From NCBI GenBank assembly GCA_947503935.1, contig CANNFR010000007.1:62001-126000 (forward strand): a stretch of 64,000 bases of DNA. The letters are read 5' to 3'. Below the pieces are notes generated by a model. The model worked only from the letters and a program-made list of their open reading frames with translations. It was not told the origin of the DNA and did no database searches. Positions within the stretch are counted from its first letter, which is position 1. The number at the start of each line of letters is the position of its first letter. Position numbers and translations under genes: made by a program. Shown in pieces: positions 2,877-8,952 of this stretch. Origin of the DNA: an uncultured Paracoccaceae bacterium (lineage in GTDB: Bacteria > Pseudomonadota > Alphaproteobacteria > Rhodobacterales > Rhodobacteraceae).

Positions 2877-4337
2877 TCATGCGTTGGTTTGCGCAGCACT
2901 TTGGCAAAGCGTCTGCAAAATATGCCCGGCGGTTTCCAGATCATCCCGAAAAGCAACACGCTCTGCCGTCTGTTGGGCGGGGTCGGGCAGCCGCAGGATG
3001 TAGGACGGATGCACGGTGATAAAAACCGGCATGCCGTCTTCCGCAGCCTCAACCGTTCCGCGCCGTCGCAAGAGCCCCGCCCCGGATCCGGTGAGTGTCT
3101 GGCAGGCCGTGGCGCCCATGGCGATGATCAGCTTGGGGCGCACCAAAGCCCGCTCGCGCGTCAGCCACCAGCGGCAGCTTTGCACCTCATCCGCATTCGG
3201 GCGCTGGTGGATGCGCCGCTTGCCACGAACCGAGAATTTGAAATGCTTGACCGCGTTGGTGATGTAGATCTGCTCGCGCTCCAGCCCCGCGGCGCGCGCT
3301 TCGGTATCGAAGACTTCTCCCGCCGGCCCGACGAAGGGGCGCCCTGTCAGATCCTCGCGGTCGCCCGGCTGTTCACCGACGATCATCAGATCGGCATCAT
3401 GCGGCCCCTCCCCGAACACGATCTGCGTGGCGGACCCGTGCAGGGGGCATCGGGTGCACCCTTGGGCCTGTCTGCGCAAGTCCTCCATCGTGCCGGGGGC
3501 AGCTTCCGTTTTCTCGGGCATGGCCATCGCGCGGGCGACAGCGGCACGGCGGGCCGGAGGGTCGGTCGGGCGCGCGGCCTCCATCTTTGCGGCGCGGGCT
3601 TCGGCGGTGCGGATCAAATTTGGGATCAGGTCGGCCTCTGGCAGATTATGCCAGTATTTCTTGGGCATCTCGGATTGCATCGCCTTCACCATCAGCCGGG
3701 CGGGATTGAAGATCGAGGCGTAATAGGTGCGCCACAGATCCTCGGTGTCATCGGCAGGTGGGCGCTGGGTGCTCTCCGTCTCGCTAAAGCTGAGCTGTCC
3801 CGCGATGAAGCGCGCCGTCACCGCAGGCGTTGCGATCACCCAATCCATGTCGCCGAAGCGGTTGGCGAAGAACGGTGTCGCCGCCTCGACGATGGGATGT
3901 TCGGGTTCAAACCATGCGGCAAAGGCGCGGCGGGGGTCGGTGCTTTCGACCTCGCGAAACCGGACGAAGGCGTGCATCTTGTGGATGTCGCGATGCACGG
4001 CCTTGGCCTGCAGCATCACCTTGCGCATCGCCGGATCGGCCCGATCCCCCCAGCGCAGGGACCCTTGGGATAGGCGCAGCACCAGCGCATAGGCCCGCGC
4101 GAACCTTTCGGGATCGCGATGACAAAGCGCCGATTCCAATCCCTTGATCGCAACGCGCGACAAATTGATCTGCCTCGGCGTGCCAGTTGCCGGAGGTTGG
4201 GTTGCAAAAAGGTCTGCCTCGGCCTGCCCGACGCGCCAGCTGACGGCTTCGGGCGGCACACCGCCTGCTGCCAGCCGCCGCGCCTCGGCCCGCCAGGCGG
4301 CCACGGTTCCGATGACCGGCAGCACGACCTGGTGCAT
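2877..4337 (-). CDS. DUF4130-UdgX fusion, uracil-DNA-binding repair protein
   Basis: 486 residues with two parts. Residues about 1-255 match the DUF4130 'probable DNA metabolism' domain that usually partners the radical SAM protein encoded upstream. Residues about 280-486 are a UdgX-type uracil-DNA glycosylase: a CTRCPL iron-sulfur cysteine pair, the active-site stretch GEQPGDREDLTGRPFVGPAG, KRRIH at 373-377, and the HPSYILR loop. In characterised UdgX proteins the histidine of KRRIH attacks the uracil-bearing sugar and leaves the protein covalently on DNA; that histidine is present here. The start codon shares one base with the upstream stop (TGATG), so the pair is translationally coupled and shares the LexA box at 5566-5580. 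The fused form is known in proteobacteria; what the DUF4130 part does is not. Confidence 0.92.
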   Translation of the reverse strand: MHQVVLPVIGTVAAWRAEARRLAAGGVPPEAVSWRVGQAEADLFATQPPATGTPRQINLSRVAIKGLESALCHRDPERFARAYALVLRLSQGSLRWGDRADPAMRKVMLQAKAVHRDIHKMHAFVRFREVESTDPRRAFAAWFEPEHPIVEAATPFFANRFGDMDWVIATPAVTARFIAGQLSFSETESTQRPPADDTEDLWRTYYASIFNPARLMVKAMQSEMPKKYWHNLPEADLIPNLIRTAEARAAKMEAARPTDPPARRAAVARAMAMPEKTEAAPGTMEDLRRQAQGCTRCPLHGSATQIVFGEGPHDADLMIVGEQPGDREDLTGRPFVGPAGEVFDTEARAAGLEREQIYITNAVKHFKFSVRGKRRIHQRPNADEVQSCRWWLTRERALVRPKLIIAMGATACQTLTGSGAGLLRRRGTVEAAEDGMPVFITVHPSYILRLPDPAQQTAERVAFRDDLETAGHILQTLCQSAAQTNA

Positions 4338-5563
4338 CAGAGCAAGCTCAGCTGTTCCGGCGGCGGTGCGAAGCGGGTCTTCAGCGCCGCATCGTCGGTC
4401 ATCCCCCGCGGTGACCAGCCCGGCGCCACGATGAAGGCCTTGGCGTTCTTCATGACAGCCCCCATCGCCGCCAGCCCCTCATACCGCACGGCGCCGTGCC
4501 GTCTTGCGGCCAGAATGCGCGCCACGGTCTTGGTGCCGAAGCCGGGCACGCGCAGCAACATTTCCTTCGGCGCGCGGTTCACATCCACAGGGAACGCCGC
4601 GCGATGCTCGAGCGCCCAGGCCAGCTTGGGGTCGACCTCAAGATCCAGCATACCCTTCTGCGCAATCTCGCCCACCTCAAACCCATAGAACCGCAACAGC
4701 CAGTCGGCCTGATACAGCCGATGCTCGCGCAAAAGCGGGGGGCGGATCAGAGGCAGGTTTTTCGAGGCATCGGGGATGGGCGAAAAGGCCGAATAGTAGA
4801 CCCGGCTCAGCTGATAATTGGCGTATAGCGTGGAAGATTGCGTTAGGATCGCCCGGTCATCGGCCGCGTCGGCCCCCACGATCACCTGCGTCGATTGCCC
4901 CGCCGGCGCAAAGCGCGCCTTGCGTTTGCCGGTATGGCTGCGCTCGCGCGAGGCCTCGCGCCTGACGCGGACTTCGGCCATCGCCTTACGGATGCCGGTG
5001 GCCGACTTCTCCGGCGCCAGCCGGGTCAGCCCCGCCTCGGTCGGCATCTCGACATTGATCGACAAACGGTCGGCCCAGCGACCGGCCTCATCAATCAGCT
5101 CGGGCGCGGCATCGGGGATGGTCTTGAGGTGGATGTAGCCGCGAAAATTCTCCTGCTGCCGCAGGGTGCGTGCGATGCGCACCATATCGGCCATCGTATC
5201 GTCGGGCGACCGGATGATGCCCGAGGACAGGAACAACCCCTCGATATAATTCCGCCGGTAGAATTCGATTGTCAGGCGCACGACCTCATCCACCGAAAAG
5301 CGCGCACGCTCGACCCGGCTGGACACGCGGTTCACGCAATAGGCGCAATCGTAGATGCAGAAATTCGTCATCAGGATCTTCAGCAGCGATATGCATCGCC
5401 CGTCCGGCGCATAGGCGTGGCAGATGCCCGCCCCGCCTGACGACCCCAGGCCAGACCCGTCGCGCGACCCGCGCCTTTGCCCCCCGGACGAGGCGCAGGA
5501 CGCATCATATTTCGCCGCATCCGACAGGATCGCCAGCTTTTCGCTGAGGGTTCTCTTGGTCAT
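4337..5563 (-). CDS. Putative DNA modification/repair radical SAM protein
   Basis: 408 residues. The radical SAM cluster motif CIYDCAYC (C69, C73, C76) should bind a 4Fe-4S cluster and S-adenosylmethionine. A C-terminal helix-hairpin-helix (VPGFGTKTVARILAARR) suggests DNA binding. The start sequence MTKRTLSEKLAILSDAAKYDAS is typical of the family. A glycine/serine-rich stretch (residues about 25-46) is longer than usual. This family is almost always next to DUF4130/UdgX, as here; its substrate is unknown. A LexA-type operator lies 2 bases before the ATG, so expression is probably SOS-induced. The nearest purine-rich site (AAGGAAGG) is about 19 nt upstream of ATG, too far for normal use, so initiation may be unusual. 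Confidence 0.9.
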   Translation of the reverse strand: MTKRTLSEKLAILSDAAKYDASCASSGGQRRGSRDGSGLGSSGGAGICHAYAPDGRCISLLKILMTNFCIYDCAYCVNRVSSRVERARFSVDEVVRLTIEFYRRNYIEGLFLSSGIIRSPDDTMADMVRIARTLRQQENFRGYIHLKTIPDAAPELIDEAGRWADRLSINVEMPTEAGLTRLAPEKSATGIRKAMAEVRVRREASRERSHTGKRKARFAPAGQSTQVIVGADAADDRAILTQSSTLYANYQLSRVYYSAFSPIPDASKNLPLIRPPLLREHRLYQADWLLRFYGFEVGEIAQKGMLDLEVDPKLAWALEHRAAFPVDVNRAPKEMLLRVPGFGTKTVARILAARRHGAVRYEGLAAMGAVMKNAKAFIVAPGWSPRGMTDDAALKTRFAPPPEQLSLL

Positions 5564-5565
5564 AT

Positions 5566-5580
5566 GTTCTTATAATGTTC
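5566..5580 (-). promoter_or_regulatory. LexA (SOS) box, GTTC-N7-GTTC
   Basis: GTTC at 5566-5569 and GTTC at 5577-5580 with exactly 7 bases between. This is the direct-repeat operator described for LexA in alphaproteobacteria (GAAC-N7-GAAC on the coding strand). It ends 2 bases before the start codon of the radical SAM gene, so bound LexA would block transcription or its start. The same region lies about 44 bases from a divergent EcfG promoter at 5624-5649. Confidence 0.78.
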
Positions 5581-5623
5581 CACACCTTCCTTCGCAAGCC
5601 AATCGCTCTTTTTCCCGTTCTGC

Positions 5624-5649
5624 GGAACTTCGGCGCACCTGCCCGCGTT
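5624..5649 (+). promoter_or_regulatory. EcfG-type stress promoter (GGAAC-N17-CGTT)
   Basis: GGAAC at 5624-5628, 17-base spacer, CGTT at 5646-5649. It precedes the 22-residue membrane peptide gene at 5690 and probably drives the four-gene operon up to 7749. Confidence 0.8.
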
Positions 5650-5689
5650 TGGACGGCAACGATCAACCGGACAAATCGGGGAAAGAATC

Positions 5690-5758
5690 ATGCGGAACGT
5701 TTTCTACATCATCGGTGTCATCGTCGTGGCACTGGCCATCATCAATTTCGTATTTTGA
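5690..5758 (+). CDS. 22-residue single-helix membrane peptide
   Basis: ATG at 5690 to TGA at 5758 encodes MRNVFYIIGVIVVALAIINF plus VF: one hydrophobic helix with an N-terminal positive charge. A GGGGAAAG site lies 5-10 nt upstream, the EcfG promoter CGTT box ends 40 nt upstream, and the next gene starts 11 nt after the stop. These context signs make it a likely real gene despite its length. It would be a tiny inner-membrane protein; function unknown. Confidence 0.7.
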   Translation: MRNVFYIIGVIVVALAIINFVF

Positions 5759-5769
5759 AGGAGGCTGAA

Positions 5770-6348
5770 ATGTCGAACGAACACATCAAGGATAAAGTAC
5801 GCGACGCCGCCGAGACGGCCCAGGAGATGGGTCGGGACGCCCTGAACGACGCCAAGGAAAAAGCGACCGAGGCCGCGAATAACACGGCATCCGCCGTTCG
5901 CGAGGAAGCAGGCGCGCGTGCCGAGCATGCAAAGGATTCGCTTGCTGAAGAAGGCCACCGTCTGGCTGACTCGCTGCGTAATGCGGCCGCCGAAAACGAC
6001 GGTAGCCTGCAGGCACGTCTGCTGGATGCCGTGGCTGGAAGTGTGGCCGATGCGTCGGAGAACCTGCGTGGCCGGAGCTTGGGGTCGATCATCGGTGATG
6101 TGGAAGGTTTTGCGCGCCGGAACCCGGGTGCCTTTGTAGCGGGCGCCACCTTGGCTGGATTTACCCTTGCACGCTTCGCTCGCGCGTCTGAGCCGCGGAC
6201 CGGCGGTGCAGATCCACTGCCCGCACCCCAGCCGACACCTGTCTACGGCGCTGACGGTGCCGAGAGGGAAATTCGCCATCACGACCCCGACTTGCGGACG
6301 TCGACCGAGGCTCGCGATCGCCAAATGGCGGTGGAGATCCCGTCATGA
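5770..6348 (+). CDS. LEA/DUF883-like amphipathic stress protein
   Basis: 192 residues. The first half is a charged, Ala/Glu/Lys-rich repeat-like helix (KDKVRDAAETAQEMGRDA, NDAKEKATEAANN), the pattern of LEA and apolipoprotein-like desiccation or membrane-stress proteins. A hydrophobic stretch follows (RRNPGAFVAGATLAGFTLA, about 118-136), as in DUF883-type proteins that sit in the inner membrane. The C-terminal tail is Pro-rich and hydrophilic. Start at 5770 with GAAGGAGG upstream. It is the second gene of the EcfG-promoted operon and overlaps the holin-like gene by 4 bases (ATGA). Specific function unknown. Confidence 0.8.
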   Translation: MSNEHIKDKVRDAAETAQEMGRDALNDAKEKATEAANNTASAVREEAGARAEHAKDSLAEEGHRLADSLRNAAAENDGSLQARLLDAVAGSVADASENLRGRSLGSIIGDVEGFARRNPGAFVAGATLAGFTLARFARASEPRTGGADPLPAPQPTPVYGADGAEREIRHHDPDLRTSTEARDRQMAVEIPS

Positions 6349-6755
6349 GCTTCGACCATGAAGCAAAATCGACCGGCACTTTGCTGTCCGACGCGCTTCA
6401 GCATTTGACTGATCTTGTGCGGGGCGAAGTGGCCTTGGCCAAGGCCGAAGTCGAACAGAATTTGCGAAATGCCGGCGTTGGCATTGGGCTTATCGTCTCC
6501 GCTGTCGTGCTGGCCCTTGTCGCCCTGAACGTTCTGGCGGGCGCGCTTGTCGCCGCATTGGCCGAGCTGGGGCTAAGCCCCGGACTGGCCGCTCTGGCGG
6601 TCGGCGGAACTTTGGCGCTAATCGCCCTCGCTTTGATCTTGAAGGGGGCATCAGCCCTCAAACCGGAAAATCTCGCGCCCGAACGCACGATGAAAAACAT
6701 CAAGCGCGACGCGAAAGCATTGAAGGAGATTGTCACAGATGACCCATCACACTGA
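6345..6755 (+). CDS. Phage-holin-3-6 family (DUF1469) membrane protein
   Basis: 136 residues. An amphipathic N-terminal helix (DALQHLTDLVRGEVALAKAEVEQNL) is followed by two hydrophobic helices (about 44-70 and 75-100). This is the Phage_holin_3_6 / DUF1469 arrangement. Despite the name, chromosomal members are not phage genes; they usually lie, as here, beside DUF883 and DUF3618 proteins in stress operons. The start overlaps the upstream stop, and the 3' end overlaps the next gene by 17 bases, so the three are one transcription unit. Confidence 0.85.
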   Translation: MSFDHEAKSTGTLLSDALQHLTDLVRGEVALAKAEVEQNLRNAGVGIGLIVSAVVLALVALNVLAGALVAALAELGLSPGLAALAVGGTLALIALALILKGASALKPENLAPERTMKNIKRDAKALKEIVTDDPSH

Positions 6756-7749
6756 CCCCCGCCAGATTGAAGAAGATATCGCGCGCGAGCGTGCATCTTT
6801 GGCCTCAACCATCGACGCTTTGCAGGACCGCGCGTCCGTCGATCACATGGCGCGCGAAGCTTTGGGGATGATCAAGACCAACGCCGCTGCCTACACACGG
6901 TCGATTGACGAGGCTGTCCGCGCGAACCCTGTGGCGGTCGCTCTGACGGGTGTTGGCCTTGCCTGGCTGGTCTTTGGGTCCAAGAAGTCCTCCACAGACC
7001 GTGACGACATGCCAGACCGGTGGGGCAAGACTGCGCCCAATGCCCATCCGCATTACCCGTACGATACCGATGTCGACAAAGGGTGGTCGCAGGAGGCCGA
7101 TCGTCTGCGCGCCCGCGCCTCGGCCTCGCTTCGCCGTGTCGAGGCGGATGCAAAATCCTATTACGCCCGCCTCCGTGACGGGGCCGCCGATACCTATGAG
7201 GATGCGCGTGACTACGCGTCCGAGCGTGCGGCTATCTTGGCTGATTTTGCAAACGATCTGGCACGCAGCTTTTCGTCGGGTCTCGACCAGGTTTCCGAGC
7301 AATCGCGCGAGCGTATTATTGCGGCACGTGAGCGCGCCTATTCCGCCCGGCTGAAGGCCGAGCGGACGGCGAAGAAGACAAGCAGCGAAACGGTGCGCTT
7401 CATTGAGGATCACCCGCTGGTTGCGGGCGCGATCGCCGCAGCTTTGGGCGCGGCCCTGGCGACGGCACTACCCCGCACGCGGATCGAGGATCGCACATTC
7501 GGCGCTGAAAGCGATCGCCTCATGGACGAAGCGAACAGGTTGTACCGGTCGGAACGGGCACGTGCGCTTCGCATTGCCGAGGGTGTCGGCGATGAACTGA
7601 AGGACGCCGCAATCGATACGATGGACACTGTTTCCGACAAAGCGGAAGAGGCCGTGACCCGCGCAAAGGATCGCGTGGTGACTGAGGCAAAAAAGCCCCA
7701 ATCCGCAAAGCGTAAGACAGCGGCTCCACAGACGAAAAAAGCATCATAA
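6739..7749 (+). CDS. DUF3618 domain stress/envelope protein
   Basis: 336 residues. The N-terminus carries the DUF3618 signature (DPRQIEEDIARERASLASTIDALQDRAS) and a membrane segment (NPVAVALTGVGLAWLVFG). A long charged, probably coiled region rich in Ala, Arg and Glu follows, then a second hydrophobic segment (HPLVAGAIAAALGAALATAL, about 225-245) and a Lys-rich tail. Start at 6739 fits AAGGAGAT at 6723-6730. Last gene of the EcfG operon, closed by a strong hairpin. Members of the family are of unknown function. Confidence 0.85.
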   Translation: MTHHTDPRQIEEDIARERASLASTIDALQDRASVDHMAREALGMIKTNAAAYTRSIDEAVRANPVAVALTGVGLAWLVFGSKKSSTDRDDMPDRWGKTAPNAHPHYPYDTDVDKGWSQEADRLRARASASLRRVEADAKSYYARLRDGAADTYEDARDYASERAAILADFANDLARSFSSGLDQVSEQSRERIIAARERAYSARLKAERTAKKTSSETVRFIEDHPLVAGAIAAALGAALATALPRTRIEDRTFGAESDRLMDEANRLYRSERARALRIAEGVGDELKDAAIDTMDTVSDKAEEAVTRAKDRVVTEAKKPQSAKRKTAAPQTKKAS

Positions 7750-7784
7750 GCTGGTAGCTTGGTGTCCAAGACAGGGATGAGTTC

Positions 7785-7822
7785 AAGGCGCGGCAGACAT
7801 CATTCTGCCGCGCCTTCGATTT
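7785..7822 (+). terminator. Rho-independent terminator of the stress operon
   Basis: Perfect 13-bp stem (7785-7797 with 7804-7816), 6-nt loop, followed by CGATTT. It ends just before the next EcfG promoter. Confidence 0.8.
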
Positions 7823-7827
7823 GCCAA

Positions 7828-7853
7828 GGAACACTTCTCGATTGGTGGACGTT
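7828..7853 (+). promoter_or_regulatory. EcfG-type stress promoter (GGAAC-N17-CGTT)
   Basis: GGAAC at 7828-7832, 17-base spacer, CGTT at 7850-7853. It is 37 bases before the TTG start of the AI-2E family transporter gene. Confidence 0.8.
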
Positions 7854-7890
7854 AACCAATCTGTATACCAACATCACTGGGAGATAGACT

Positions 7891-8952
7891 TTGGATCGCG
7901 TTGAAAAAGTATCCCAGTTCTTCATTATCATTTTGGGACTTATTGCACTTTTTACAGCACTGAATGCCGTTGAAAACATCTTCGCGCCTCTGGCACTTGC
8001 GCTGGTTGCGGGTGTTGTTTTGTCCCCTGTCTCCGATTTTTGGGAGCGGTTGGGGTTTCCATCTGTCATCGGTGCACTGGTCAGCCTGGCCGCCACGCTG
8101 GTCGTCATGGCAACGTTTATCCTGGTCTTTCAGCCCGTTGTCGCGCAACTGGTCGCCCAGGCGCCGAAGGTGTGGAGCGACATGCAGGACACCGTTGAAT
8201 TCTTGCGCGGTCTGATGAAGGGGTTTTCCGAGGTGACCGACGGGATGACAGACGCCATCGCGCCGGAAGCTAGCGCCCAAAACGGGAACCAATCCAGCGA
8301 CGATGGAATGACCCTGCCAAGTGTCACCGATGCGCTGATGCTTGCGCCGGTGATCCTGGGGCAGATCCTTGTCTTCGGTGGTGCCTTATTCTTCTTTCTG
8401 CTGTCGCGGGGCGATATCTACCAATGGGCCGCCCGCCGCCTGTCAGAGCCGACCGAGCGCGCCCAGACGGCGCGCAAGCTGCAAGAGGCCGAGCGGCGCG
8501 TGGCGCGCTATTTTCTGACCATCACGCTGATCAATGCGGGCCTCGGTATCGCGACCGCTTTGGCCTTGCAGGTTATGGGAATGCCGGCGGCGATGCTCTG
8601 GGGGCTGGTTGCGTTTTTGCTGAACTTCATCCTTTACCTCGGTCCGGCCGTTCTTGTCTTCTCGCTGCTGTTTGCAGGTATCGCGGCCTTCGACGGCGCT
8701 ATGGCCCTGCTTCCCGCGGTGACGTATCTGGCGCTGAACGCGACCGAGGCGCAGTTCGTGACCCCCGGCCTTGTCGGCAAGCACATGCAGGTCAACCCGC
8801 TGCTGATTTTCCTGTCGCTGGTGTTTGGCCTATGGTTGTGGGGACCGATCGGCGGCATTGTGGCTATACCGCTGCTGCTCTGGGTTCTGGTGCTGAGCGA
8901 CGGGATCAAATCGGATGCAGCCCAGAACAACGCGCCTGAGCGTGCGGCGTAA
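7891..8952 (+). CDS. AI-2E (PerM/TqsA) family transporter
   Basis: 353 residues with about eight transmembrane helices in the pattern of the AI-2E transporter family: an N-terminal pair of helices, a long soluble loop (about 90-140, acidic), then the C-terminal block ending IFLSLVFGLWLWGPIGGIVAIPLLL. The start is TTG at 7891, supported by GGGAGA at 7879-7884. Family members export signalling molecules or act in ion homeostasis; the substrate cannot be read from sequence. The EcfG promoter upstream puts it in the general stress regulon. Confidence 0.87.
   Translation: MDRVEKVSQFFIIILGLIALFTALNAVENIFAPLALALVAGVVLSPVSDFWERLGFPSVIGALVSLAATLVVMATFILVFQPVVAQLVAQAPKVWSDMQDTVEFLRGLMKGFSEVTDGMTDAIAPEASAQNGNQSSDDGMTLPSVTDALMLAPVILGQILVFGGALFFFLLSRGDIYQWAARRLSEPTERAQTARKLQEAERRVARYFLTITLINAGLGIATALALQVMGMPAAMLWGLVAFLLNFILYLGPAVLVFSLLFAGIAAFDGAMALLPAVTYLALNATEAQFVTPGLVGKHMQVNPLLIFLSLVFGLWLWGPIGGIVAIPLLLWVLVLSDGIKSDAAQNNAPERAA

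Follow-up and report, generated by a model that had tools for sequence, protein, structure and literature searches.

A conserved, predicted LexA operator upstream of a radical SAM/DUF4130-UdgX operon in Alphaproteobacteria

The operon encoding a radical SAM protein and a fusion of DUF4130 to the uracil-DNA glycosylase UdgX is widespread and biochemically uncharacterised. In the 64,000-nucleotide stretch of DNA from an uncultured Paracoccaceae bacterium analysed here (hereafter the window), the operon is preceded by the sequence GTTC-N7-GTTC, which raises the question of whether these genes are controlled by LexA or whether the motif stands there by accident. Operators of the GTTCN7GTTC type are standard sites of LexA repression, in which the repressor lies over the -10 region and is released through RecA-stimulated self-cleavage.

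Results

The operon lies on the minus strand. Its first gene (4337-5563) encodes a 408-residue radical SAM protein of the TIGR03916 family (COG4277 type), which it matches with 586.6 bits against a cut-off of 343.5. The protein contains the CX3CX2C motif and matches PF04055, together with a weak, sub-threshold match to the helix-hairpin-helix family PF12836. Six cysteines are invariant in 22 orthologues of the protein; C69, C73 and C76 constitute CX3CX2C, while the additional residues, C23, C48 and C57, may be ligands of a second iron-sulfur cluster. A search with the predicted model (pLDDT 81) returned only generic radical SAM folds among the best 50 matches listed, with no spore photoproduct lyase among these 50, and sequence comparison identified neither a solved relative in the PDB nor a match to SplB. 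Structure thus offered no route to the mechanism of the enzyme. Plasmid records that contain the radical SAM gene number 158 (Phaeobacter, Paracoccus and others). Among genomes of the family to which the window belongs, no more than 11 of the 27 listed have it; its distribution is patchy, and the gene is apparently mobile.

The second gene (2877-4337, minus strand) encodes a 486-residue protein in which DUF4130 (TIGR03915, 180 bits) is fused to a UdgX uracil-DNA glycosylase (TIGR03914, 323 bits). Its start overlaps the stop of the radical SAM gene at 4337 in the sequence TGATG, an ORF overlap that bears out the coupling of the two genes described in the original prediction. The translation contains GEQPG (motif A), the KRRIH loop and HPSYILR (the HPS motif B), the motifs that define the UdgX class, in which the nucleophilic His is located in the KRRIH loop (PMC10359453). 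Consistent with this assignment, G320-G324, H376, H442 and R448 are conserved over 23 orthologues, and the predicted UdgX domain aligns with the structures of MsmUdgX with a TM-score of ∼0.89 on the target and 42% identity. All 50 structure matches listed are UDG structures, and no relative of DUF4130 was found in the PDB. DUF4130 was previously predicted to be related to mutagenesis (PMC3765255).

Positions 5566-5580 carry GTTCTTATAATGTTC on the plus strand (GAACATTATAAGAAC on the minus, or gene, strand), which, by both direct reading and motif search, is an exact match to GTTC-N7-GTTC and the single one in the window. Two bases (5564-5565) separate the box from the ATG (5561-5563) of the radical SAM ORF, exactly as originally proposed. 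The operator overlaps the predicted promoter, TTGCGA-N17-TATAAG. Thus, as read from the sequence, a probable -10 hexamer, TATAAG (5569-5574, minus strand), is housed within the operator spacer, and a probable -35 hexamer, TTGCGA (5592-5597, minus strand), is positioned 17 bp upstream. A similar organization is evident in other Alphaproteobacteria, where 111 of 130 boxes display the GAAC...GAAC orientation on the gene strand. The spacer of these boxes has the consensus ATATANT, which holds the -10 hexamer. Among 65 relatives the frequency of TTG is highest 18 bases ahead of the box (22 loci compared with 1.7 per position), which fits a -35 element at ∼17 bp. A generic promoter scan made no call of the promoter of this operon. 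Transcription would start at or next to the ATG, generating a leaderless mRNA. Genes on the plus strand (5575-8952), which encode a holin-like protein (PF07332), a DUF3618 protein and an AI-2E family transporter, diverge from the operon, and the operator is located in the shared upstream region.

GTTCN7GTTC contains only eight fixed bases, and 1.62 matches are expected per window. Across the genome the motif occurs 107 times compared with 139 occurrences of a reversed control pattern. Of 102 genome sites that were read, 60 are inside strongly coding ORFs. The bare count of the motif, in the window or the genome, is not above chance and the sequence alone is no evidence; motif counting was therefore dropped as sole proof. 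It is the position and conservation of the box that make it more than a chance occurrence.

Gene calling around the genome sites revealed GTTCN7GTTC upstream of recA, lexA, uvrA and a PcrA/UvrD helicase gene. The motif also precedes the genes for PdeM, MmcB and an AlkZ-like glycosylase, is 13 bp from a gene for an HhH DNA glycosylase (a match below the family cut-off), and lies upstream of a probable imuA (only 25.9 bits, a weak score where the cut-off is 150). As the expected SOS regulon carries the motif, these data show that the GTTCN7GTTC consensus holds in this species. The HhH DNA glycosylase, AlkZ-like glycosylase, PdeM and MmcB genes (own-genome loci L066, L082, L084 and L029) are further candidate SOS targets.

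Conservation was assessed in three alphaproteobacterial sets, which overlap in that some genomes are present in more than one. In a sample of the class, TIGR03916 was above its cut-off in 25 of 385 genomes, and 24 of these orthologues have the exact box near the start (0.11 expected in shuffled sequence). The exact box was also found at all 34 loci of a second set and at 72 of 75 named GTDB loci, the other three matching seven of the eight bases. When the overlapping sets are pooled, the exact box is upstream of the gene at 130 of 134 loci (L035, L150, L161 and L203 lack it), compared with ∼0.5 expected, and the box is thus conserved before orthologues, as the original prediction required. An accidental match of eight bases would be in keeping with the 1.62 sites expected per window and the genome count below that of the reversed control, but not with an exact box just upstream of the same gene at almost all loci, nor is this recurrence merely a reflection of recent relatedness as the orthologous proteins display only 55-74% identity. 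By this comparison of sequences the chance explanation is taken to be already refuted, retaining a vanishingly small probability.

In six pairs (L146, L157, L161, L165, L171 and L185) the second gene encodes DUF4130 without UdgX. Five of these pairs are preceded by the exact box and one (L161) by a version matching seven of the eight bases. Retention of the box in these loci argues that the controlled unit comprises the radical SAM and DUF4130 genes, with UdgX an added module, and rules out the view that the box is a feature of UdgX.

Among the 26 beta- and gammaproteobacterial orthologues, taken from a 398-genome sample of the phylum, none has GTTCN7GTTC, while the E. coli-type LexA box, CTGTN8ACAG, is present in its exact form at 19, positioned 24-65 bp upstream, and as a one-base variant at five others. 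Conversely, no alphaproteobacterial orthologue locus contains CTGTN8ACAG. The occurrence of the local LexA-type operator at the same position strongly indicates selection for LexA control as such.

The Xanthomonadaceae provide an exception. Neither CTGTN8ACAG nor the lexA1 box precedes any of 18 orthologues from this family, and both CTGTN8ACAG and the classical Xanthomonas LexA box were therefore rejected as the operator. A palindrome, GTCTCA-N5-TGAGAC (with no more than one mismatch), is located before 15 of the 18 radical SAM orthologues. The exact palindrome was found in 41 of 60 Xanthomonadaceae genomes, and its reversed control in none. At 30 loci the genes behind it include those for a DEAD/DEAH helicase (11), the radical SAM protein (5), mraZ (4) and recA (1), and in a Stenotrophomonas genome uvrA is preceded by the palindrome. 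The helicase is TIGR03817-like and matches the Hrq1 winged helix weakly, below threshold. The lexA1 promoters of the family carry TTAGTAGTAATACTACTAA and one lexA2 promoter carries GTGTACAAATGTACAC, showing that the palindrome matches neither LexA operator, which, in combination with its position before the helicase, uvrA and recA genes, points to another DNA-repair regulator. There is perhaps an even chance that, in Xanthomonadaceae, a non-LexA regulator binds GTCTCA-N5-TGAGAC and controls the radical SAM operon, the DEAD/DEAH helicase, uvrA and, in some species, recA, constituting a DNA-repair regulon under its own master regulator. The palindrome loci of the family are L237, L240, L243-L245, L292-L321 and L330-L346, and a Rhodanobacter orthologue (L178, upstream of 3001) displays GTCGCAGCGCTTGCGAC, a two-base variant. 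A small, partial literature search found no earlier description of GTCTCA-N5-TGAGAC. Through this exception, a damage regulon beyond the two known LexA operators becomes open to testing.

Discussion

The presence of the motif at recA, lexA, uvrA and other repair genes of the same genome, its conservation before alphaproteobacterial orthologues and its replacement by the local box in the beta and gamma classes make LexA repression of the radical SAM operon very likely. The box at 5566-5580 is almost certainly a functional LexA operator of the radical SAM/DUF4130-UdgX operon, and we infer that LexA binds to it and that the operon is induced by damage. LexA bound over the -10 region would keep the operon off. 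On DNA damage, RecA on single-stranded DNA would stimulate LexA self-cleavage, and the operon would then be expressed along with recA, uvrA, uvrD/pcrA and other repair genes. This mode of repression and release accords with all of the observations.

Two other interpretations of a conserved box merit consideration. As it sits in a shared intergenic region, with plus-strand ORFs that start from 5575 or 5691 on, the box could mainly serve the divergent genes for the holin-like and DUF3618 proteins. This is very improbable, however, as conservation of the box tracks the radical SAM gene across families, the probable -10/-35 pair is oriented for minus-strand transcription, and no known repair protein is found among the divergent products. 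The sequence could alternatively be read by another regulator, such as a second LexA-like protein, a scenario suggested by the Xanthomonadaceae operon, where the operator matches neither LexA1 nor LexA2. Against this, the lexA, recA and uvrA promoters of the window's genome all carry GTTCN7GTTC, and we consider involvement of such a protein at this locus similarly improbable.

LexA control of the radical SAM operon therefore remains the preferred explanation, and the LexA link originally drawn from the consensus is supported by both the genome and the orthologues. The proposal that the box gives independent regulatory evidence of a role in the DNA-damage response stands with respect to the regulatory link, but its claim to novelty was too strong. 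The COG4277-COG1573 operon has been described as SOS-regulated in Bacteroidetes (PMC8565304), and that paper cites earlier reports of SOS control in Verrucomicrobia and Alphaproteobacteria. SOS control of the operon is thus confirmed rather than new. The near-universal LexA box in Alphaproteobacteria and its beta/gamma replacement place the function of the operon firmly in the DNA-damage response, and LexA control indicates when a phenotype should be sought. As a guess, the radical SAM-DUF4130 pair might modify or remove a damaged base, while UdgX would cap uracil or abasic sites covalently.

Among the closest known systems is the alphaproteobacterial LexA regulon, that of Caulobacter crescentus included, in which, as cited through PMC8565304, the same GTTCN7GTTC is found in the promoters of genes that include recA, lexA, uvrA, imuA and mmcB-type genes; only the species and the exact gene set differ, and the operator described here is predicted. 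The COG1573-COG4277 operon of Bacteroidetes and Verrucomicrobia (PMC8565304) comprises the same pair, a radical SAM gene and a UDG-linked gene, under LexA. The Bacteroidetes LexA motifs, GGA-N5-TCC and CTAA-N5-TTAG, contrast with the direct repeat GTTCN7GTTC, and the DUF4130-UdgX fusion is a further difference from that operon. Mycobacterium smegmatis UdgX shares the GEQPG, KRRIH and HPS motifs and, on the basis of the model, a nearly identical fold, whereas here the domain follows DUF4130 in a fusion, and translation of this fusion is coupled to that of the radical SAM gene. The spore photoproduct lyase SplB is a radical SAM enzyme that is often SOS-controlled. Although the partner of DUF4130 has been termed SplB-like (PMC3765255), TIGR03916 is a family separate from SplB.
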